Assembly (NCBI GenBank): GCA_017450215.1
Contig: JAFSVH010000087.1
Span: 1 to 48,286 of the forward strand
DNA length: 48,286 nt
Direction of reading: 5' to 3'
Source: Bacilli bacterium
GTDB lineage: Bacteria > Bacillota_I > Bacilli_A > ML615J-28 > CAG-698
Shown here: one piece after another, positions 30,406 to 41,695 of the stretch
Layout of the letters: the number at the start of each line of letters is the position of its first letter
Numbering within the stretch: the first letter of the stretch is position 1
The notes under the pieces: model-generated
The model's database searches: none
Told to the model about the DNA's origin: nothing
The model's input: only the letters and a program-made list of their open reading frames with translations
Translations under genes and position numbers: made by a program

Positions 30406-30636
30406 ATGATATTGTTTAATCAACTGAAGCAAGCTGACATCGTTTTTTTCGCTGTTTGTATTGCTATTATTGTGATTATTGTCGCTGTTTGGTTGTTAAT
30501 TCCTGTTTTTAATAAACGTCAATATAAGGAGCAAAGGGATAGTTTACGTAAAAGAGAAGCTGCTTTTAAAGGCTTATCGGATACAAAAACTGATGAAGCT
30601 TCTGATAAAATAGAAGAGGACATAAAACTAGGGTAG
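30406..30636 (+). CDS. Small single-span membrane protein
   Basis: A 76-residue protein with one membrane helix (about 12-35, rich in Ile and Val) followed by a charged tail rich in Lys, Glu, Asp and Arg. By the positive-inside rule the tail (NKRQYKEQRD) should be cytoplasmic. GAGGTGAT lies upstream. It has its own promoter and a hairpin terminator that begins before its stop codon. No family is recognised; it could be an accessory subunit for a membrane complex. Confidence 0.75.
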   Translation: MILFNQLKQADIVFFAVCIAIIVIIVAVWLLIPVFNKRQYKEQRDSLRKREAAFKGLSDTKTDEASDKIEEDIKLG

Positions 30637-30670
30637 TTAGACTGACTACTCGTTTTAATGTCCGCTTTTT
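30618..30670 (+). terminator. Long hairpin with T-run overlapping the end of gene 30406
   Basis: Interrupted stem: GGACAT (30618-30623) with ATGTCC (30658-30663), AAAAC with GTTTT, and GTAGT with ACTAC, followed by GCTTTTT. The left arm lies in the last codons of the gene, so a ribosome finishing translation could block it. It may act as an attenuator for the genes downstream. Confidence 0.6.
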
Positions 30671-30688: not shown

Positions 30689-31870
30689 TTGAGAAGAGGA
30701 TTAAGAATATTTGCTGCTGTTGTTTATTTTTTAATGGTATCAGTTATTGGTATTTTTATAGCACTTATAATTCCCCAGATTAGATTAATGGAATTACCTT
30801 TTGACAAAGCTCAAGAAGCACTTGATGCTATGGAATTAAGTGATGTAGTTAGATTTACTCCTGGATATTATGATAGTGATATTGCTTATTTTGGAACATA
30901 TAATGATGTGAAAATTGCAATATTCCGTGCTGCACCTTTAATTGAAGATGAACAAGGCTTAGCAGAAGCAAAGATGACAATTGCTTATGAAGGTTATCTT
31001 TTTAACATAGGTGGTAAATATGAACACCAAGGTGAAGAAAACAATGAAACTAAATTAGTTTATACTGATAGTGATGATGTAGAACATATTTACAAATTAG
31101 TCCGTTATGATGTTGATGGAAATGAAGTAAATGATGCTATCAGTACATTGTACACTCATGATTTTGTCTATTTTGAGATTCATCAAGAAGATACAAAAGA
31201 TCTTAAAACTTTTAAATTTATAGATAAAAATGGTGATGTGTTTGCTTCTTTTAATGATTTGAATTTAGATTTTAATCATCAATTCTTTATCGATGTAAAA
31301 GATTTTAAAGATGAATATAATAAAGATTTTGCATCAATTAAGCTACAAGAGTTAGAAGATGTATTCTTAAGTAAGAATAGTACATATCGAAAAAACAATT
31401 ATGATGATATTAAAAAAGAAGCTGATAGAAGTGGTGTTATATTTATAATTATTTATTTTGTAATTGCCTTTATGATTGGTGATTGCTTAGTAGGTAAACG
31501 ATATATCATAAAATTAATTAAGATTATTGTTAGAAAGATACGCAAAGATGAGAAAAACGAAGTTAGTGATGATGGATTTTCTAATGATTATTATACAAAT
31601 GTAACAGTTATATTAGAAGTTCCTGATGATTGTGAGGATACTTTTGTTATTACATATCATAATGTAAAGAATGATGTTGAATTTAATTTAACAAAAGTTG
31701 AGGGTTATAAAACGACAAAGAGAGTCCATGCCGGTGTTTATGTTAATGCTTTTGTGGAAAGTGTAGAAGGTAAATATAAAGCTACAAATTTACCAACTAA
31801 ACTTGATATAAGAGGATTTACAAAAACATTTGTGATTAAATTTGAAAGAATCAATAAAAACAAGATATAG
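30689..31870 (+). CDS. Two-span membrane protein of unknown function
   Basis: The 393-residue protein starts at TTG, supported by AGGAGAA a few bases upstream. It has a membrane helix at about 5-32, an outside domain (about 33-245), a second helix at about 249-270 and a cytoplasmic, beta-rich C-terminal domain (about 300-390). It sits 22 bases before the ABC ATPase gene with no terminator between, so it is likely co-transcribed with the importer and may be an accessory or regulatory membrane subunit. No family is recognised. Confidence 0.8.
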   Translation: MRRGLRIFAAVVYFLMVSVIGIFIALIIPQIRLMELPFDKAQEALDAMELSDVVRFTPGYYDSDIAYFGTYNDVKIAIFRAAPLIEDEQGLAEAKMTIAYEGYLFNIGGKYEHQGEENNETKLVYTDSDDVEHIYKLVRYDVDGNEVNDAISTLYTHDFVYFEIHQEDTKDLKTFKFIDKNGDVFASFNDLNLDFNHQFFIDVKDFKDEYNKDFASIKLQELEDVFLSKNSTYRKNNYDDIKKEADRSGVIFIIIYFVIAFMIGDCLVGKRYIIKLIKIIVRKIRKDEKNEVSDDGFSNDYYTNVTVILEVPDDCEDTFVITYHNVKNDVEFNLTKVEGYKTTKRVHAGVYVNAFVESVEGKYKATNLPTKLDIRGFTKTFVIKFERINKNKI

Positions 31871-31892
31871 AGATAGGAAAGGTAAAAGAAAT

Positions 31893-32975
31893 ATGAGAAT
31901 TAGTATTGAGAATTTAACAAAAATCTTTCCAAGTAGACATAAAGCTGGTGAGAATGTTACTGCAGTAAATGATATGTGCATTGAAATTCCTTCTGGTAAA
32001 TTAGTAGGATTGCTAGGCCCTTCAGGATGCGGTAAATCTACAACATTATTTATGCTAAGTGGACTTGAAAAACCAACATCAGGACATATCATCTTTGAAG
32101 ATGAAGATGTAACTACTCTTGCTCCTGAAAAGAGAGGAATTGGATTAGTATTCCAAAATTATGCTCTTTATCCACATATGACAGTTGAACAAAATATTAT
32201 GTTCCCACTTGTTAATATGAGACTTCCAAAGGAAGAAGCAAGACAAAGAGCATTAGAAGCTGCTGAGTTAGTTCAAATTGAAGAATTATTAACTCGTAAA
32301 CCAAGTGAATTATCAGGTGGTCAACAACAACGTGTTGCGATTGCTCGTGCACTTGTAAAAATGCCTAATGTATTATTACTTGATGAACCATTGTCAAATC
32401 TAGATGCTCGTTTAAGACTTCAAACTCGTGAAGAAATTAAGAGAATTCAAAGAGCTACAGGTATTACAACTGTATTTGTAACACATGACCAAGAAGAAGC
32501 AATGAGTATTTGTGATCAAATGGTTGTTATGAAATTAGGTGTTGTTCAACAAATGGGTGAACCACAAGAAATTTATGATAATCCTAATAATTTATTTGTA
32601 GCTAATTTCTTAGGTACTCCACCTATTAATATTTTTAAAGGCAAAGTTGAAAATGGTGGAATCTATATTGGAGATGAAAAAGTAGGAGAAACTAATGTTG
32701 GTGATCAAGAAGTGTTTATCGGTATTAGACCTGAAGGATTCATTTATGATCCAATGGGTGCACTTACTGTAAATGTTCAAAATGTAGAAGTAATGGGTAG
32801 AGATAAGACTGTTGTTTCAACTCATCCATCATCTACTAAACCTACAATTAGATCTATTATTGATTCAGATATTAAGCTTCCAAAGGATGCTTTACAACTT
32901 AAGTTTAATATTAAACCTAATAAATTATTCTTATTCAATGCTGAAACTGAGGAGAGAATCTACGATGGAAGATAA
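31893..32975 (+). CDS. ABC transporter ATP-binding protein, sugar-importer (MalK/UgpC) type
   Basis: The ATPase of an ABC importer. I chose ATG 31893 (360 residues), which matches the family start (MRISIENLTK) and lies behind AGGAAAGG; an in-frame ATG at 31842 is inside the previous gene. Walker A GPSGCGKST (42-50), signature LSGGQQQR, Walker B LLLLDEPLSNLD, and VTHDQEEAM with the switch histidine are all intact. The C-terminal part (about 240-360) is a TOBE/OB regulatory domain as in MalK and UgpC. It overlaps the first permease by 11 bases. The family imports sugars, glycerol-phosphates and sometimes nucleosides; substrate is not readable here. Confidence 0.96.
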   Translation: MRISIENLTKIFPSRHKAGENVTAVNDMCIEIPSGKLVGLLGPSGCGKSTTLFMLSGLEKPTSGHIIFEDEDVTTLAPEKRGIGLVFQNYALYPHMTVEQNIMFPLVNMRLPKEEARQRALEAAELVQIEELLTRKPSELSGGQQQRVAIARALVKMPNVLLLDEPLSNLDARLRLQTREEIKRIQRATGITTVFVTHDQEEAMSICDQMVVMKLGVVQQMGEPQEIYDNPNNLFVANFLGTPPINIFKGKVENGGIYIGDEKVGETNVGDQEVFIGIRPEGFIYDPMGALTVNVQNVEVMGRDKTVVSTHPSSTKPTIRSIIDSDIKLPKDALQLKFNIKPNKLFLFNAETEERIYDGR

Positions 32976-34077
32976 ACAAGTAAGAGATGAAAGTTTAGCT
33001 GTCGAAGAAAATCTTGATAACCAAGAAATGGATAACCAAGAATTGGATGACCAAAAATTGGATGACCAATTAGATAGTCTAATAGAAGAAGCTGTTCTCG
33101 AAACAGAATCTCAAAAGCCTAGACAAAAAATGAGGCTTGAGAGTTTTAAACGAGGTGCTTATCATGAACAAGGTTGGTTATTCGTTCTTCCAGCAGTTTT
33201 GTTAATGTGTGTTTTCACATTCTATCCAATTATAAATACATTTGTGAGTGCATTTAAAGTTGGATATAAACCACTTGACTCAGCATATGAATTAAAGTGG
33301 GGATTTGAAAACTTTGTAAGAGTTTTAAGAGGAGATACAGGAACTGGTGGTGCTAATTTTGCTAGATGCTTCTGGAATACATTAGCATTCACATTTATAT
33401 CTGTTCCAGTTTCTACGCTTCTTGCATTGCTTATTAGTGTTGCTTTAAATTCTATTAAGGTTTTGCAAAAAGCATATCAAACAATATTCTTCCTTCCATA
33501 TCTTACAAATGCACTTGCTATGGGTGCCGTATTTGCAACACTATTTAATGTTGTAGGTACTGGTAATACTGTTGAGACAGTAGGACTTATAAATGTATTG
33601 CTCGGACGTACTGCTGATAATTATATAAATTGGATTAATTTAGGTTCTGATATTTGGGCTAATAGATTTGTAGTTATTATTTATGAGATTTGGTCTGGTT
33701 TACCATTTAAGATTTTAATCTTATTCAGTGCACTTCAAAATGTTAATAAACAATATTATGATGCTGCTAAGGTAGATGGTGCTTCTAAATCTACAATTCT
33801 TTGGAAGATTACTGTTCCACTTATTTCACCGATGTTATCATATTTATTAATTACTGGTATTATGGGTGGTATGAAAGTATATACTGCTGTAGTTGGTTTG
33901 TTTGGTGAATCAATGGGTCAGGAATATGAAGTTGGAACGATGGTTGGTTATTTATATAACTATATTGAAAAAGGTGAGACGGGTTATGCTGCAGCAGGAT
34001 CACTTATCTTGTTCGGTATAATAATGATTATAACTCTTATTAACTTATATGTTAGTAAGAAGAGAGTACATTACTAG
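32965..34077 (+). CDS. ABC importer permease 1 (MalF/UgpA type)
   Basis: Start ATG 32965 lies behind GAGGAGAG and overlaps the ATPase gene end; it gives 370 residues. An unusual acidic N-terminal tail (about 1-65) contains four five-residue repeats of the DNQEL type. Then come about six membrane segments beginning at about 72 (GWLFVLPAVLLMCVFTFYPI) and the coupling motif YYDAAKVDGASKSTILWKI near 265-283, which contacts the ATPase. The C-terminus ends in the last membrane helix. It pairs with the next gene. Confidence 0.95.
   Translation: MEDKQVRDESLAVEENLDNQEMDNQELDDQKLDDQLDSLIEEAVLETESQKPRQKMRLESFKRGAYHEQGWLFVLPAVLLMCVFTFYPIINTFVSAFKVGYKPLDSAYELKWGFENFVRVLRGDTGTGGANFARCFWNTLAFTFISVPVSTLLALLISVALNSIKVLQKAYQTIFFLPYLTNALAMGAVFATLFNVVGTGNTVETVGLINVLLGRTADNYINWINLGSDIWANRFVVIIYEIWSGLPFKILILFSALQNVNKQYYDAAKVDGASKSTILWKITVPLISPMLSYLLITGIMGGMKVYTAVVGLFGESMGQEYEVGTMVGYLYNYIEKGETGYAAAGSLILFGIIMIITLINLYVSKKRVHY
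33016..33075. repeat. Four in-frame 15-base tandem repeats in the permease N-terminus
   Basis: Units start at 33016, 33031, 33046 and 33061, consensus GATrACCAArAATTG with a diverged last copy. They encode the acidic, Gln-rich cytoplasmic tail of permease 1. Copy number could vary without changing frame. Confidence 0.85.
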
Positions 34078-34087
34078 GAGGTTTGCT

Positions 34088-35017
34088 ATGGAAAAATCAA
34101 ACGACTTACAAGTAATGAATAATAGTGAATTTAATCTAGATGCTAATAAAGAGAAGAAAAAAGAGAAAGTAATTGTTACTATTAGAAATGTATTTGTTTA
34201 TATTTTCTTAACATTAGTTGCTATTTTCTCATTCTTCCCATTCTATTGGATGATAATGACTTCTCTAAAATCTGAAGCAGATTTTAGACAAGCAGTGCCT
34301 GGATTCTTCCCAAGAGCTGAATTTGGAGGATTCCAATGGTCTAACTATGCTAATGTATTAGCAGGTAGAAATAGTGTGTTTGGTCAAATTCTATTTAATA
34401 CTGTTTTTGTTGGTATTTTCTCAACTGTCATGAGCTTGATAATAACTATTTTAACTGCTTATGCTCTTGCAAGAATGAATTTCTCAGGAAAGAATATCTT
34501 ATTTGCTTTAATGCTTGGTACTATGATGATTCCTGGTGAAATGTTTACAGTTACTAACTATATTACAGCATCAAGACTTGGATGGGCTAATACATATGTA
34601 GCTTTAATTGTTCCATTCCTAGTTAGTATTTATTATATTTATCTATTAAGGAATGCGTTTATGCAGATACCAGAAACTTTGTACAAAGCTGCAAAGGTTG
34701 ATGGTATCACTGATATGGGTTATCTTGTTAAGGTAATGGTACCTTTAACCGCTCCAACATTGATTTCTATTACATTGCTTAAGTTTATTGGTACTTGGAA
34801 TTCATATATTTGGCCAAGATTAATCAACAAACAAAGAGCATGGAGATTGCTTTCTAACTGGGTATCAGGTGGATTTACTCAAGCTGGATCTAGTGAGCCA
34901 TCAAATACACTTAAGATGGCTGCTGCATGTATCACATCTATTCCACTATTCTTGCTATTTATCTTCTTTAGAAAATATATCATGCATGGTGTAAGTAAGA
35001 GTGGTATTAAAGGATAA
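34088..35017 (+). CDS. ABC importer permease 2 (MalG/UgpE type)
   Basis: The second permease. ATG 34088 follows AGGAGG and gives 309 residues; an in-frame ATG at 34049 lies inside the previous gene. Six membrane segments start at about 33 (VFVYIFLTLVAIFSFFPFYW), and the ATPase-coupling motif LYKAAKVDGITDMGYLVKV is at about 198-216. The C-terminus (SKSGIKG) is typical of this family. It starts ten bases after permease 1, confirming one operon. Confidence 0.96.
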   Translation: MEKSNDLQVMNNSEFNLDANKEKKKEKVIVTIRNVFVYIFLTLVAIFSFFPFYWMIMTSLKSEADFRQAVPGFFPRAEFGGFQWSNYANVLAGRNSVFGQILFNTVFVGIFSTVMSLIITILTAYALARMNFSGKNILFALMLGTMMIPGEMFTVTNYITASRLGWANTYVALIVPFLVSIYYIYLLRNAFMQIPETLYKAAKVDGITDMGYLVKVMVPLTAPTLISITLLKFIGTWNSYIWPRLINKQRAWRLLSNWVSGGFTQAGSSEPSNTLKMAAACITSIPLFLLFIFFRKYIMHGVSKSGIKG

Positions 35018-35070: not shown

Positions 35071-36552
35071 ATGAAAAACTTTTTAAAAACAATTAGAACA
35101 TTAAGTTTAGTTTTAGTTCTTGGAGTTGTTTTGTTTGCCATGACTGCCTGCGATGGTTTTGGTGTAGATAATTCTAAGAAGATTATTTTCTATCACACAA
35201 TGGGTGATAGTTTACAACAAGTTTTAGAAACTGCTAAAGCAAAATTTGAAGCAAAGTTCCCTGGTTGGGTAATTGAACATACTCAAGTTGGTGGATATGA
35301 TGATGTTAAGAGTGCAGTTGTTGCTGACTTACAAGGTCAAACTCAACCATCACTTGCTTATTGTTATGCAGACCATGTTGCTCAATATTTAACAACAAAG
35401 AAAGTTGTTGATATGAGTAAGTACATTAATAGTACTGAACAGATTACTTATACTTCATATGAGTATGAGATGGATGGAGAAGATTATAAGCTTGATGAAG
35501 AAGGCAATAAGATTGTTGCATCAACTGTTGAAGCACAAGAAGTTGTTGGATATACTGCTGCTGAAATTGAAGACTTTGTAAAAGGTTATTATAATGAAGG
35601 TTTTGCAACAAACTATGCTGATTATGAAAAATATGGATATAGTGCAACTTCAATTTTGACTCTTCCATTCGTAAAATCAACAGAACTTGTTTATTATAAC
35701 AAGACTGCTTTAGTTGATTGTGGAATCGTTGATGCAGCTGGTAAAGCTAAAGCTCCTGTTACATGGGACGAATTATGGGAAGATGCAGCTATTATTAAAG
35801 CTAAATATCCTGATTCAACTCCAGTAGGATATGATAGTGAAGCAAACTGGTTCATCACAATGTGTGAACAAAATGGTTGGGGTTATACAAGTGCTACTGA
35901 ACCTCATTATTTATTCAAAGGTGAAAAACAAGCACAATGGCTTGATACTTTAGCTGGATATTATGATAAAGGCTATTTAACAACTCAATCTGCTTATGGT
36001 TCATATACATCTAACTTATTTACTAAAGGTGTTGAAACAGGTGTTACATTCTCAATCGGTTCAAGTGGTGGTGCTAATCACCAAAAGCCAGCTGATGGCA
36101 CATTTGAATGGGGTGTTGCTAGACTTCCTGGTTCACTTCAATCTGATGGCACAATAGCTTATAAAGCTATCTCTCAAGGACCATCTCTATGTATGTTTTT
36201 TGAAGATGTAGAAAACGCAGAAGAAAAAGCATTAATGACTTGGGAATTTGTAAAAATATTATTAGAACCTGATTTCCTTGCTGCATTCTCAATTGCATCT
36301 GGTTATAACCCACCAAGACAATCTACATTTGATATTGAAGCATATCAAGATCACTTAAATGGTACAAGTATTACAGCTGCTGCTGCAAGAGCTGCAGCAA
36401 CAATGGTAGATGATTTCTTTACATCTCCTGCATTCGTTGGTTCTTCAACTGCTAGAACACAAGTTGGTAATGTTTTAGTTTATGCTATGACAGGACAAAA
36501 AACAGCTGAAAAGGCATTGGCAGACGCATATGTTAACTGCGGTGGTAAGTAA
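35071..36552 (+). CDS. ABC importer substrate-binding lipoprotein
   Basis: A 493-residue extracellular solute-binding protein of the sugar type (family 1). The signal peptide ends in lipobox TAC with Cys27. The mature part begins KKIIFYHTMGDSLQQVL, as in UgpB- and MalE-like proteins, and contains SLAYCYADHVAQYL (lobe 1), PVTWDELWEDAAIIKAKYP and a late SGYNPPRQS motif. An acidic insert at about 120-190 is longer than usual. AAGGAG sets the start. It should capture the substrate at the cell surface for the two permeases. It overlaps the nuclease gene by 23 bases. Confidence 0.95.
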   Translation: MKNFLKTIRTLSLVLVLGVVLFAMTACDGFGVDNSKKIIFYHTMGDSLQQVLETAKAKFEAKFPGWVIEHTQVGGYDDVKSAVVADLQGQTQPSLAYCYADHVAQYLTTKKVVDMSKYINSTEQITYTSYEYEMDGEDYKLDEEGNKIVASTVEAQEVVGYTAAEIEDFVKGYYNEGFATNYADYEKYGYSATSILTLPFVKSTELVYYNKTALVDCGIVDAAGKAKAPVTWDELWEDAAIIKAKYPDSTPVGYDSEANWFITMCEQNGWGYTSATEPHYLFKGEKQAQWLDTLAGYYDKGYLTTQSAYGSYTSNLFTKGVETGVTFSIGSSGGANHQKPADGTFEWGVARLPGSLQSDGTIAYKAISQGPSLCMFFEDVENAEEKALMTWEFVKILLEPDFLAAFSIASGYNPPRQSTFDIEAYQDHLNGTSITAAAARAAATMVDDFFTSPAFVGSSTARTQVGNVLVYAMTGQKTAEKALADAYVNCGGK

Positions 36553-37822
36553 AAATATTAAAAAATTATTTGTCTTAGCACTTGCTTTAATAATTACATT
36601 AGTTTTAGTTGGTTGTGGTGAGACAGTAACAATTGACCAATATGGTGAATATGATGCTGTGACTAAAACTTGTGAATTTCAAGTGACTTATACAGATAAT
36701 AGTAGTTTCCTTACAGATGGTGCTGGATATGCTACACTTATCAGTTTAACTGATGGTGATACAACTAATTTCAGACTACCTGGAGGACAAAATATTACAA
36801 TTAGATATCATGGTGTTGATACTCCTGAATCTACAGGAAGTGTAGAAAAATGGGGTAAGGCAGCAAGTTTATTTGTAAAGAGTAAACTTGAAACTGCTGT
36901 ATCTATCGTTTTAGAAGCAACATCAACTCCAGCATCTCATGATAGTTATGGTGTTAGATATCTAGGTTATGTATGGTATAAATTAGGCGAAAATGATCCA
37001 TTTAAATTACTAAATCTTGAACTTGTAGAAAACGGATTTTCTAAGAATAAATGTATCAATACACCTGACTTTAAATATTATTCATATTTCAAGAAAGCTG
37101 AAGATTTTGCAAAGAATAATGGTCTAAGACTTCATGGAGATTATAAAGATCCATATTATTCTACTGCAGCTGAAAAAATAACATTAAAAGATTTCTTTGA
37201 TAATCCAGACGCATATTACAATAGTGATGCTGAAGCTGGATCAAAAGTAAGAATTCAAGCATATATTACTGATTTAACAGTTTCAGGAAGTGGTACTTAT
37301 ACATTTACTGCAACTCAAGAAGTTGATGGACAAAAATATAGTATGCCTATCTATGCTGGATATTCTTCAGCTCCTGTTTCAGGATTTATTAAAGTTGGTA
37401 ATCTATATTCATTAACTGGTAATATTGCAAAACATAATGGATCATGGCAAATATCTGGTTTAATTTATGTTGCAATGCAAACTGGTGGTGATTATGTTAC
37501 TATGCTTCAAAGAGATTATTATTGTACATTCGATTCAAAGATTGCTTATGGAGATAAATGGGGTACATCATTATTCAATAGTGGTACTGTTACAAGTGCT
37601 GAAATTGTAGATGGAAAAGTACAATTTGTTGCTACTGTTAAGAGAAATACTTCTGATGGATATAGTGATGATATTCAAATGACATTTGTTTATAAAGAAG
37701 CAGCTGAAGCTGGTTTTGATCCAGCTACATTAGTTGGTAAAACTGTAAGTGGTGTTGGCTTACAATTAGAAAAGAATTCTAATGTTATTACAGTATCTCA
37801 AAGTGATATTAGATTTGAATAA
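36530..37822 (+). CDS. Secreted SNase-type nuclease lipoprotein
   Basis: A 430-residue lipoprotein (lipobox LVGC, Cys29) with a thermonuclease-like domain (about 65-210). The key residues of staphylococcal nuclease are all visible: Asp in DGD (about 75-77), Arg92, Asp97 and Glu100 in IRYHGVDTPE, and Arg143 in GVRYLGY. A second, OB-like domain (about 215-310) and a beta-rich C-terminus follow. It should cut DNA and RNA at the cell surface. The start overlaps the binding-protein gene (ATG 36530; GTG 36542 is also possible), so expression is coupled to the importer. This link is the main hint that the substrate derives from nucleic acid. Confidence 0.9.
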   Translation: MLTAVVSKNIKKLFVLALALIITLVLVGCGETVTIDQYGEYDAVTKTCEFQVTYTDNSSFLTDGAGYATLISLTDGDTTNFRLPGGQNITIRYHGVDTPESTGSVEKWGKAASLFVKSKLETAVSIVLEATSTPASHDSYGVRYLGYVWYKLGENDPFKLLNLELVENGFSKNKCINTPDFKYYSYFKKAEDFAKNNGLRLHGDYKDPYYSTAAEKITLKDFFDNPDAYYNSDAEAGSKVRIQAYITDLTVSGSGTYTFTATQEVDGQKYSMPIYAGYSSAPVSGFIKVGNLYSLTGNIAKHNGSWQISGLIYVAMQTGGDYVTMLQRDYYCTFDSKIAYGDKWGTSLFNSGTVTSAEIVDGKVQFVATVKRNTSDGYSDDIQMTFVYKEAAEAGFDPATLVGKTVSGVGLQLEKNSNVITVSQSDIRFE

Positions 37823-37870: not shown

Positions 37871-40800
37871 ATGAAAATCAAAAAAGTTTTTGGATGGTTG
37901 TTATTGCTAGTTATTGCTTTAACACTTGTTGCATGCGATGGTGCTGGTAAAGTCAATTATGAAGAATTACTAAGTACTTATTTATTAAATGTATCTAGTC
38001 CTTTAACTGCTGACTTCACACTTGATTCAAAATTGAAAATCGGTGAAAATGAATACGATTTGAAGTGGACTTCTAGTGATGAGTGTGTAAAGATTGCTAG
38101 TGAGGCTGTTGATGGTGCTTATACTGTAACTGTTACTAGACCTGACGAAAAAAAGGAAGTTACATTAACTGTTGAACTAGGTGGAGTTACTAAGGAATTT
38201 ACCTTCCAAGTAAATCCATATGATGTTTATGATTTCACTGGTAAATATGTATTCAAACAAGAAAAGACTACTGTTTCAAGTGATTTCGCACTTGATACTG
38301 AATTTGAACAATTCGGTAAGAAATGTACTATTTCTTGGGAATCTTTAGATACTGATTACATTACAATTAGTGAAGATGGAAAGACTGCTCAAGTTTTAGG
38401 CAGTAGCGTTGAAAAGAATGTTACATTAAAAGCTACTTTCTCATATAATGGTGAAATCTCAGCTAAGAGATTTGTTGTTACTGTTTATGATGAAATGGAT
38501 CCAATGGAATTAATTGATTATTGGTATAAGAATACAGGTGTTTCTCAAACATTATCTGGTTATGTTGTAGTTGTTGGTACTGTATTTAGTGCAACATACA
38601 ATAACATTAGCTTATATATGGTTGATGATTCTTTGAAGGCTGGTTATTATCTATATAGAGTTGGCTGTACTCAAGAAGTTGCTGATAAGTTAGCTCCTGG
38701 TGTACATGTAACAGTAACTGGAACAACTAACACAAATTATAGTGGATTAATGGAAACTAATGCTGGTGGTCAAATCGTTGTTGATGATGATGTTGAAAAG
38801 ATTGATATTATGTCAACTGTTGTTGATTTTGATAGTGAATTAACATCTAAATCTCCATCTGCTGTTTATCGTCAATCTACATTAGTTAAATTAAATGGTT
38901 GGAAGATTACTGAAAAGACTAAAGCTCCAACTCGTGGTGTTACTACTTCAATGTTAAAGATTGAACGTGATGGTGTTACAATTACTGTAGACGTAAGTAA
39001 ATATTTAGAAGGCTATTATTCTCCATGGGATGCTGATGCAGATCCTAAGTTCGATGCTATTGTTGCTAAATATGGTGAATTAGAAGTTGGTGATTATATT
39101 GATATTACTGGTATTTTAGGTAATTACAATGGACATCAAGTTCATGTAATTGATGCTGATTTATTAGTTAAGAGTAGTGCTCCTACTGGTCCATCTTTAG
39201 GTGCTGCACTTGCTGGATTAATTGAAAGCACTGAAATCCCTGCTAAGATTAGTGATTCTACAAGTATTGCTTTACCTGCTGGTGAAGGCGATGCAACAGT
39301 TACTTGGGCTCTTACTAAAGAATCTAAAGTTGCAAAAGTTGAAAATGGCAAATTAGTTATTACTCCTGGTGATAAGGCTGCTAAAGTTACTTTGATTGGT
39401 ACTTATGCTAATGGTGATTTCTCAACTGCTGTATATTATAGTGTTACTGTTGGTGTTCAAGATAATACTGTTAAGACTATTGCTGAAGCTAAAGCTTCTG
39501 ATAAAGGTAGTGAAGTTACTGTTCAAGGAACTGTAATGGCTACTTCAGCTCGTGGATATATCTTATATGATGGAACTGATGCAGTTTATGTTTATGCTAA
39601 TGGTTCTACAGTAGATGCTGAAAAAGCATTTGCTTGGAAGGCAGGAGACACTGTAAAAGTTGCTGGTAAGATGGATTATTATAATGTTATCGAATTAGTT
39701 CCAACTGAAAGTGTTGCTGTTGAAATTGAAGCAAAAGCTGCACCAGATGTTTCATTATATAATTCTTCAAAAGTTGCAGATTATGTAGCTGCTGATAAAG
39801 CTTATCCTCAAGATTATGCTGAATTCACAGGTGTATTAACTGTAAGTGGAAATTATTTCAATGTTGGTTGGGATGGCGTTGAAGCTCAAGTTTCTCTATC
39901 ATATTTGAATGATGATCTAAAAGCTGTATTTACTGCATTAAATGAACAAACTGTAACATTTAGAGGATATACAATTGGTCATTCTTCTAATAAATATTTG
40001 AATGTTATGGTTACTGAAGTTTGTGGAACTCTACCTGTTAGTGTTGTTAAATTACTTCCAAATGGAACTGAAGTAACAGTTGAAGGTAAAGTTGTTGCAT
40101 TATCTAGTCGTGGCTATGTTGTTTACGATGGAAAAGATGCTATTTATGTTTATGCACACGGTTCAGCTGAAGCTGCTGAAAAAGCATTCTTCTATGAAGA
40201 AGGAGATTATATCAGTGTAACAGGTGCTAAAGGCTTCTATAATGGAGCTCAAATTGTTCCTACATCTAGTGAATATTTAGTTGAATATGAAGAATTTGAT
40301 GGCCCAGAAGCAGAAGAAATTGATGAAGCTGCAATCAGAGCATATGTTGCTGCTGAAAATACAGAATTTGCTAATAAGCTTGTAAAAGCAACTGGTAAAG
40401 TTCTTATCAATAATGGCTATTACAATGTATTATTATCAACTGAAGGAGAAGTACAAGTTTCATTATCTTATTTAACTGATGAACAAAAAGCTGAATATGA
40501 AAATGATAAAGAATATACAATTTATGGATGGACTATTGGTCAATCATCTAATAAATATATGAACATTATTCCATGTACATATATTGAACCACTTGGTGAT
40601 TATGTTGAAGTATATGAAGAAGGTGCTTTATATGTTAATCTTGCATTCACTGAGACTGATTGCTCTTGGGGTGGAACTCAATTAACATTTGGTGTTAATG
40701 GATTTAATGATATTAAAGCTGCTGTTGCTGCTGCTACAGAAGGACAAACTATTTACTTACAATCAGGTGAATATGTAGTTGTTGAATCTGGTGGTGATGC

Positions 40801-41566
40801 ATTTGCATTTGATAAATCACTTAAGTTCGTTGGTCCTAATGCTGATATTCCTGGCTATGTAACTAGAAGATATGAAGATGCTATTATTAAATTTGGTAAC
40901 AACACTGTAGGTGCTACATTTGTTAACAAATTAGAATTTGTTGGTTGTGAAGTAAGAGGAAACGCAATTGGTTATGTTGCTGGTCACTTATTTGATTCAA
41001 CTGATACATCTGAATCAATCTCTTTCACAAACTGTGTATTACATTCATCTAATACTTTCATTTCTCTTGAAAAAGGAACAAATCAAGAAGTATATGTAGA
41101 TGGTTGCTATATTCATGGTATTAACCAATTCTTTGTATGGATTAGAACTGATACTGCAAATAAATTCACTTTAAAGAATTCATTATTTGATGCTCAAGAT
41201 TGTGGACAAGTAACTAGTCCATACGCTACAATGATGAGAGTTAGAAATCAAGCTGAAGTTAAGATTTATCATAATGTATTCATTGGTGATGAATTGAATA
41301 ATGGATATTTTGAACCTAGTGTAGGTCCTGAAGGATCATTCGATGTTCAATATAATGAATTTAGATTAGTTACTAAATTTGTCTATAAATTTGGTGATAA
41401 TGAAAAGATTACTTTCAATAATAACATCTATACAGATGGTGATGGTGAACCACTTCTTGAAGCACCAACTTTAGAAGTTGAAGGTGTTGAAGTTACAAAA
41501 GATGAAAATATATTTGAATCTAAAGAAGCTTTAGAAGCTGCTTGGTTAGCTTTCACAGCAAATTAA
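37871..41566 (+). CDS. Giant lipoprotein with Ig-like, OB-like and beta-helix regions
   Basis: A 1231-residue lipoprotein (lipobox LVAC, Cys22). Regions in order: two bacterial Ig-like domains (about 30-117 and 118-205); a first OB-like region (about 210-440); a third Ig-like domain (about 440-530, DATVTWALTKESKVAKVENG); two copies of a two-part OB-like module (about 530-745 and 745-950) with repeated GSEVTVQGTVMATSARGYIL / GTEVTVEGKVVALSSRGYVV; and a C-terminal right-handed beta-helix (about 955-1200, GFNDIKAAVAAATEGQTIYL). The OB units resemble those of YhcR-type nucleases. No catalytic residues are recognised. AAAGGAG precedes the ATG; it follows the nuclease gene by 48 bases and closes the operon before a terminator. 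Confidence 0.9.
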   Translation: MKIKKVFGWLLLLVIALTLVACDGAGKVNYEELLSTYLLNVSSPLTADFTLDSKLKIGENEYDLKWTSSDECVKIASEAVDGAYTVTVTRPDEKKEVTLTVELGGVTKEFTFQVNPYDVYDFTGKYVFKQEKTTVSSDFALDTEFEQFGKKCTISWESLDTDYITISEDGKTAQVLGSSVEKNVTLKATFSYNGEISAKRFVVTVYDEMDPMELIDYWYKNTGVSQTLSGYVVVVGTVFSATYNNISLYMVDDSLKAGYYLYRVGCTQEVADKLAPGVHVTVTGTTNTNYSGLMETNAGGQIVVDDDVEKIDIMSTVVDFDSELTSKSPSAVYRQSTLVKLNGWKITEKTKAPTRGVTTSMLKIERDGVTITVDVSKYLEGYYSPWDADADPKFDAIVAKYGELEVGDYIDITGILGNYNGHQVHVIDADLLVKSSAPTGPSLGAALAGLIESTEIPAKISDSTSIALPAGEGDATVTWALTKESKVAKVENGKLVITPGDKAAKVTLIGTYANGDFSTAVYYSVTVGVQDNTVKTIAEAKASDKGSEVTVQGTVMATSARGYILYDGTDAVYVYANGSTVDAEKAFAWKAGDTVKVAGKMDYYNVIELVPTESVAVEIEAKAAPDVSLYNSSKVADYVAADKAYPQDYAEFTGVLTVSGNYFNVGWDGVEAQVSLSYLNDDLKAVFTALNEQTVTFRGYTIGHSSNKYLNVMVTEVCGTLPVSVVKLLPNGTEVTVEGKVVALSSRGYVVYDGKDAIYVYAHGSAEAAEKAFFYEEGDYISVTGAKGFYNGAQIVPTSSEYLVEYEEFDGPEAEEIDEAAIRAYVAAENTEFANKLVKATGKVLINNGYYNVLLSTEGEVQVSLSYLTDEQKAEYENDKEYTIYGWTIGQSSNKYMNIIPCTYIEPLGDYVEVYEEGALYVNLAFTETDCSWGGTQLTFGVNGFNDIKAAVAAATEGQTIYLQSGEYVVVESGGDAFAFDKSLKFVGPNADIPGYVTRRYEDAIIKFGNNTVGATFVNKLEFVGCEVRGNAIGYVAGHLFDSTDTSESISFTNCVLHSSNTFISLEKGTNQEVYVDGCYIHGINQFFVWIRTDTANKFTLKNSLFDAQDCGQVTSPYATMMRVRNQAEVKIYHNVFIGDELNNGYFEPSVGPEGSFDVQYNEFRLVTKFVYKFGDNEKITFNNNIYTDGDGEPLLEAPTLEVEGVEVTKDENIFESKEALEAAWLAFTAN

Positions 41567-41665: not shown

Positions 41666-41695
41666 TTGAAAGCCCATACACTATCATGATATAAT
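41666..41695 (+). promoter_or_regulatory. Promoter for lipoprotein gene 41720
   Basis: TTGAAA (41666-41671), 18 bases, TATAAT (41690-41695) with TGA before the -10. Confidence 0.72.

Follow-up and report, generated by a model that had tools for sequence, protein, structure and literature searches.

A duplicated OB-domain lipoprotein at the end of a conserved nuclease and ABC transporter operon may hold nucleic acid at the cell surface

The closest described systems include the 'DNA-degradation loci' of Candidatus Izemoplasmatales, which according to the excerpt of PMC8289736 bring together, as neighbours, extracellular nucleases, an ABC transporter and a large, 1,049-aa secreted protein with nucleic-acid-binding and lamin-tail domains; what we say of other published systems likewise follows excerpts of the papers cited. 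For Xianfuyuplasma coldseepsis zrk13 it was reported that the culture supernatant degrades DNA, that growth is faster with DNA, and that a DNA-degradation cluster with a thermonuclease and ABC transporters is induced, 'EddB' about 20-fold (PMC8397711), and H. nucleasis zrk29 is reported to use both DNA and RNA. In Mycoplasma, the MAG_5040-type operon combines a staphylococcal nuclease (SNase), an ABC ATPase, two permeases and a P80 sugar-type solute-binding lipoprotein in one transcript (PMC3585158); it was proposed there to import nucleic acid precursors, a link repeated in a review (PMC12115388). Here we analyse a related locus in a Bacilli bacterium (GCA_017450215.1, contig JAFSVH010000087.1), whose 48,286-nt stretch we call the window. 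The subject is gene 6, the last gene of the locus, a single open reading frame (ORF) with an ATG start at 37871-41566 on the forward strand that encodes 1231 aa. A sequence-only reading had called the product a lipoprotein of this length, and the translation, read by eye, agrees: residues 1-22 form a lipoprotein signal peptide with the lipobox LVAC at 19-22 and Cys22 at its end.

Gene 6 closes a co-directional run of genes for an ABC ATPase, two permeases, a solute-binding lipoprotein and an SNase lipoprotein. The ORFs of the run overlap or lie at most 53 bases apart, with 48 bases between the end of the SNase gene and the start of gene 6. The run has the gene content of the Mycoplasma operon, but the order there is solute-binding protein, SNase, ATPase and permeases, and the excerpt of PMC3585158 does not mention an OB-array lipoprotein. 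The operon is a variant of the already described kind of locus represented by Izemoplasmatales DNA degradation: judged by sequence, the nuclease, the ABC transporter and the large secreted OB-domain protein all have counterparts in the window run, and we infer that the 1,049-aa protein of PMC8289736 is gene 6. The two differ in that the large Izemoplasmatales protein carries a lamin tail whereas window gene 6 has a beta-helix, and in that genes for DHH phosphohydrolases, along with phosphate transporter genes, adjoin the Izemoplasmatales loci whereas the window genome has its DHH-type pair on another contig. Polysaccharide utilisation loci of the SusE/SusF type are alike in bringing a surface capture protein, a surface enzyme and an importer together in one locus, but they serve a different polymer and use TonB-dependent transport rather than an ABC importer, and we claim no homology.

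The association of gene 6 with the ABC-linked SNase proved to be strict. Because a contig search with the whole gene 6 protein gave no match, loci were sought with an SNase alignment (A1) of the window SNase and six relatives, from which one relative's row with unreadable stretches was left out. At E 1e-8 this alignment has matches in 42 of the 43 genomes of the order, and an aBig/OB protein lies directly after the operon SNase in 36 of the 43 (25/28 in the window's family and 11/15 in the sister family); in one of the 36, G041, the contig begins at the SNase and the ABC genes are outside view. In the remaining seven genomes, three contigs end at the SNase and four assemblies are without an ABC-linked SNase, so that gene 6 is present in 36/36 of the order contigs that continue past the operon SNase. 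SNase loci of the order that lack ABC genes served as an internal control: an OB-profile protein came next in none of the nine that were fetched, from among a larger number of non-ABC SNases in the order. Such a locus occurs in the window's own genome (L110), where a second SNase, with an OB domain and no ABC genes, is followed by a 1794-aa protein having seven aBig domains and no OB match.

The same arrangement extends beyond the order, to about ten more families. Among named loci (the best 80 of 281, partly on the same contigs as the order genomes, as with L131 and G020) an OB protein adjoins the SNase in 68, an aBig-only protein in five and the contig end in six, and in one locus, L173, the SNase is followed by a secreted protein of 441 aa that no profile matches. 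No ABC gene was seen on the contig in three of the 68. These loci are labelled Anaeroplasma bactoclasticum ATCC 27112 (L138), Acholeplasmatales and Anaeroplasmataceae, together with many metagenome-assembled genomes labelled Clostridia, Lachnospiraceae or Oscillospiraceae. Of the 19 loci from nine families that were chosen at class level, 18 have an OB protein and the remaining one has aBig only; an OB protein is also present in 2/2 more. The named and class-level counts are not a random sample, because of the best-80 choice, the contig overlap and the picking of class-level loci from strong SNase-profile matches. The SNase alignment matched 189 of 395 class-level genomes at E 1e-15, which counts SNases and not operons. 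Among the papers listed in literature searches, none names in its title or the opening of its abstract an OB-array lipoprotein as a constant partner of an SNase-ABC operon outside Izemoplasmatales, and the conservation of gene 6 in the operon is wider and stricter than we found reported in open papers. The system described for marine Izemoplasmatales is thereby extended to rumen and gut bacteria, including the cultured A. bactoclasticum strain.

Profiles give the domain order of gene 6 as aBig-aBig-OB-aBig-(OBa-OBb)x2-beta-helix (Table 1), with a further weak OB match at residues 381-426. Pfam reports aBig_2 in two stretches (whole-protein E 1.6e-11) and the tRNA_anti-codon OB family likewise in two (E 4.3e-10), while for the YhcR-type OB or BOF (YgiW) family NCBIfam stress_OB_fold reaches 24.6 bits against a cut-off of 35 and a PDB sequence search returned chance-level matches only (E 0.11 and 0.69). 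The sequence-only reading had placed three Ig-like domains before the first OB region; three aBig domains are indeed present, but the third (445-556) follows the first OB (217-298). Its description of the domain order as unusual is fair for gene 6 of the window, while OB and aBig domains are what gene 6 of this operon normally has. The two-part OB module, which it had taken to be present in two related copies, is a true duplication: residues 528-717 align to 718-905 with a score of 346 and 76/181 identical columns, far above chance as given by 500 shuffles (mean 37.6, standard deviation 6.6, maximum 68). The first OB region shows a weak likeness to the later modules, with a pairwise score of 52 against a shuffle maximum of 67.

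Predicted structures bear out the OB folds. We modelled residues 528-910 together with 12 tandem arrays from related loci, and obtained four strand-rich units ordered as expected of four OB barrels (mean local confidence, pLDDT, 80; predicted template modelling score, pTM, 0.75). The p204 HIN-dsDNA complex (E 1.3e-8) is among the top Foldseek matches in the PDB, and further matches are ribosomal protein S1, RPA-ssDNA, RADX-ssDNA, BRCA2-ssDNA, Teb1 and SSB; YgiW (1nnx) matches with a template modelling (TM) score of 0.71 over the target. HIN domains are pairs of OB folds, and are in this respect like the two-part OBa-OBb module. With VIA-align, a single OBa domain matches AspRS and AsnRS chains at Z 12-14 (best Z 14.2, root-mean-square deviation (rmsd) 2.0, 92 aligned) over the N-terminal part of those chains, which we take to be their anticodon-binding OB. 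In such structure comparisons we count the matches that are present and draw no conclusion from those that are missing.

OB regions of this kind are also found in secreted DNases. Xds and ExeM were reported to lose their activity when the OB or YhcR-like region is deleted, and their lamin tail to be largely dispensable or merely helpful; the YhcR-like region of ExeM is described as a set of two putative OB folds (PMC6085458, PMC6746945). When compared with ExeM/NucH models, gene 6 of L247 and of L249 matched the accessory, non-catalytic parts, at E 5.2e-38 in the lamin tail of L247 and E 5.7e-16 in the OB regions of L249. An OB (YhcR-like) region with a lamin tail is common to ExeM, Xds, NucH and some gene 6 relatives, but those enzymes carry a catalytic EEP domain in the same chain, whereas gene 6 is without EEP and the nuclease is a separate SNase gene. 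Pfam and NCBIfam scans of window gene 6 found no catalytic EEP family, and Pfam, at E up to 1, found no lamin-tail domain (LTD). According to Pfam, gene 6 ends in a lamin tail in L247, L249 and L257, three relatives from outside the order, and has none in L248 and L244, so this domain is not constant even among relatives.

The assembly that we took as X. coldseepsis zrk13 (G087/L247) has the operon, and its gene 6 consists of aBig, OB and lamin-tail domains. Loci of the zrk13 family carry a pair of DHH-type genes, of which Pfam confirms one, following gene 6 or an additional SNase gene. Since NrnA, a DHH-type enzyme, is reported to degrade 2-5-mers, DHH/NrnA-type genes near the operon suggest import of short oligonucleotides. 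In L247, L273 and L274 the operon lies between recR/ybaB-like genes (assigned by eye) and the DHH-type pair, with an extra small SNase gene in between.

The SNase itself looks intact. D75, G76, D77, T78, R92, E100 and R143 are invariant in 7/7 rows of A1, and the pattern aligns to staphylococcal nuclease; D75-T78, R92, E100 and R143 are presumably the active-site residues of the window enzyme. Its OB domain is linked to the gene 6 modules by the OBa profile alone, since in pairwise alignment the SNase C-terminus and the OBa-OBb modules are no more alike than chance.

The domain content, the intact SNase active-site pattern, the conserved gene order and the predicted folds observed for the operon together favour, at a probability that we put at about two in three, the reading that the OB/aBig part of gene 6 is the nucleic-acid-holding surface component of a conserved extracellular nucleic-acid scavenging operon. 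The sequence-only reading had left open which polymer the protein holds; the operon context points to nucleic acid, and makes a question about an orphan protein into a testable one. We infer roles in binding, cleavage, import and spacing as follows. A lipid anchor would hold gene 6 at the membrane, with the aBig domains as spacers, and the paired OB modules would keep DNA and/or RNA near the cell through conserved aromatic stacking rather than a basic surface. The co-encoded SNase lipoprotein, with an OB domain of its own, would cut the held nucleic acid, and the solute-binding lipoprotein and ABC importer would take up nucleotides or short oligonucleotides, which in some lineages neighbouring DHH/DHHA1 (NrnA-like) enzymes might finish inside the cell. 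More tentatively, and with somewhat less than even confidence, we suggest that this is a general nucleic-acid utilisation locus, comparable to those for polysaccharides, nearly fixed across gut and sediment mollicute relatives and several Clostridia-labelled lineages, in which the constant sixth gene is an OB capture array at the surface and a CUT1 importer has been turned to nucleotides or oligonucleotides finished by NrnA-like enzymes. If the transporter does carry these, they would be a new kind of substrate for the CUT1 importer type, and the operon would explain uptake by wall-less bacteria living on scavenged nucleic acids.

Several observations weigh against a nucleic-acid-holding role. 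Every domain of window gene 6 is acidic, the whole mature protein having an isoelectric point (pI) of 4.4, and 471 OBa domains from relatives have a median pI of 4.64 and a median net charge of -4. The basic patches sought on the OB surfaces, checked here by sequence charge, are thus not borne out, and the negative net charge in every domain led us to reject electrostatic, basic-patch DNA binding as the mechanism. The conserved positions of the OB profiles are mostly aromatic, glycine or aliphatic rather than basic, with the exception of one Lys-rich column in OBb, so that nucleic-acid binding, if any, should use stacking or bridging metal ions. For the HIN, RPA and SSB matches the TM-score over the query is low (0.14-0.27), which flexible linkers between the domains would explain, and the PDB probably contains a disproportionate share of OBs with bound nucleic acid. 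The ABC parts resemble CUT1 importers for sugars or glycerol phosphate. The same genomes also have OB/aBig proteins that are not accompanied by an SNase, which places the operon specificity in the position of the gene and not in the domain. Finally, the operon was expected in Hujiaoplasma nucleasis zrk29, but in the assembly that we took as this strain (G137) the SNase alignment finds nothing at E 1e-15, and OB- and lamin-tail-like proteins are encoded elsewhere; as zrk29 is reported to degrade nucleic acid, the lifestyle does not need the operon.

The C-terminal domain, which the sequence-only reading had called a right-handed beta-helix, is supported as such by a predicted model (pLDDT 83.7, pTM 0.88) that resembles pectin methylesterase and pectin lyase (Foldseek E 7e-4). 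VIA-align places it on a PL6 alginate lyase, residues 438-727, at Z 21.7 (rmsd 3.3, 248 aligned) and on pectin methylesterases at Z of about 18-20. Pfam Beta_helix stays under the family cut-off (E 0.075), no carbohydrate-active Pfam family passes its cut-off for this domain, and the invariant columns of its alignment are mainly Gly, Asn, Phe and Gln. A predicted fold common to polysaccharide lyases and pectin methylesterases reveals no function. The beta-helix profile also matches two proteins on another contig of the window's own genome and, more weakly, proteins in a few relatives; among gene 6 proteins it is found, besides the window's, only in the congener's L111 (55 bits), and it has no match in the named or class-level loci. 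The beta-helix is therefore an addition made locally, in this lineage, to an otherwise standard gene 6, at an end where other lineages have a lamin tail or nothing recognised. The two matches in the own genome (L031, 6033-11762 and 12766-15924) are large surface-type proteins that combine the same beta-helix with Listeria-Bacteroides (InlB-type) repeats.

The acidic surfaces and near absence of conserved basic residues would also suit a scaffold, in which the OB/aBig domains dock the SNase and the solute-binding protein together and products pass straight to the importer. The strict neighbourhood of gene 6 with both genes fits this, as do the protein-binding engineered OB domains (OBodies) among the top VIA-align matches. 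We consider a scaffold unlikely, if still a serious contender, since the SNase has an OB domain of its own, and ExeM and Xds, reported as single-chain DNases, require their OB region to cleave; together these suggest contact with the substrate. Less probable again is a polysaccharide system, in which a CUT1 sugar importer works with a lipoprotein that binds glycan through its OB domains and beta-helix, and the nuclease is there for another reason. The CUT1-type permease, the likeness of the solute-binding protein to UgpB and sugar-binding proteins, and the PL6-like and pectin methylesterase-like fold all speak for it, and OB folds can bind oligosaccharide. However, the six window proteins scanned, between 34049 and 43671, contain no glycoside hydrolase, lyase or esterase family over the Pfam cut-off, the constant enzyme of the locus in relatives is a nuclease, and most gene 6 proteins do without the beta-helix.

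We regard it as very improbable that gene 6 encodes a general adhesin or surface filler and sits in the operon only by accident. It is repetitive, it ranges from about 320 to 2050 aa in relatives with mixed C-termini, and paralogues with the same beta-helix and InlB-type repeats exist elsewhere in the genome, but an incidental place is hard to reconcile with its presence on every order contig that continues past the operon SNase. A defence reading was also set aside: the SNase has a PADLOC 'SNc+LTD' match (E 1.6e-21), but the ABC operon context fits nutrition better, and automated pipelines that label operons like this one as defence systems could mislead.

Table 1. Features of the operon and of gene 6 in the window. 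Residue numbers refer to the encoded protein.
Feature	Coordinates	Strand	Basis
393-aa conserved protein, possibly first gene of the unit	30689..31870	+	ORF, phmmer homologues
ABC ATPase, UgpC/MalK-like by eye, TTG start uncertain	31842..32975	+	ORF, same place in relatives
ABC permease 1, ORF start set mechanically and probably upstream of the true one	32812..34077	+	ORF, profile
ABC permease 2	34049..35017	+	Pfam BPD_transp_1 E 4.4e-13; NCBIfam UgpE/MalG-like below cut-off
Solute-binding lipoprotein	35071..36552	+	Pfam SBP_bac_8 E 4.8e-24; PDB relatives UgpB and sugar-binding proteins (distant)
SNase lipoprotein, SNase domain 90-199, OB 214-310	36530..37822	+	Pfam SNase E 1.9e-12; OBa profile 32.5 bits
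Gene 6, aBig/OB/beta-helix lipoprotein	37871..41566	+	ORF, Pfam, profiles
Gene 6 lipoprotein signal peptide, residues 1-22, LVAC	37871..37936	+	Translation by eye
Gene 6 aBig domain 1, residues 28-117	37952..38221	+	aBig profile
Gene 6 aBig domain 2, residues 115-216	38213..38518	+	Pfam and aBig profile
Gene 6 N-terminal OB, residues 217-298, weak	38519..38764	+	OBa profile 24.8 bits
Gene 6 aBig domain 3, residues 445-556, envelope overlapping next OB	39203..39538	+	aBig profile
Gene 6 OBa copy 1, residues 531-611	39461..39703	+	65.7 bits, predicted model
Gene 6 OBb copy 1, residues 630-717	39758..40021	+	57.4 bits, predicted model
Gene 6 OBa copy 2, residues 718-797	40022..40261	+	55.8 bits, VIA-align Z 14.2 to AsnRS chain
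Gene 6 OBb copy 2, residues 817-904	40319..40582	+	50.4 bits, predicted model
Gene 6 right-handed beta-helix, residues 920-1223	40628..41539	+	Own profile 375 bits, model pTM 0.88, VIA-align Z 21.7

The 393-aa protein encoded before the ATPase has no match in a Pfam scan. Its phmmer homologues occur in 22/80 named loci, usually directly before the ATPase gene, and also in L034, L244 and L246, so by position it may be another partner of the transporter. The unit has a terminator-like site ahead of it (30631-30651) and a promoter-like site behind it (41666-41695), although shuffled sequence gives as many such sites as the region contains. An Rfam search of the window found no family, and a plasmid search with the window SNase gave partial matches only. 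OB lipoproteins stand in other settings as well. In a congener (L036, 5155-10821) a 1888-aa lipoprotein carries eight tandem OBa-OBb pairs, and no SNase or ABC gene was found beside it on the contig. At L050 (5823-9974) permease-type genes, assigned by eye, are followed by an OBa lipoprotein with no SNase before the contig end, so that an OB lipoprotein may in some cases accompany an ABC system by itself.

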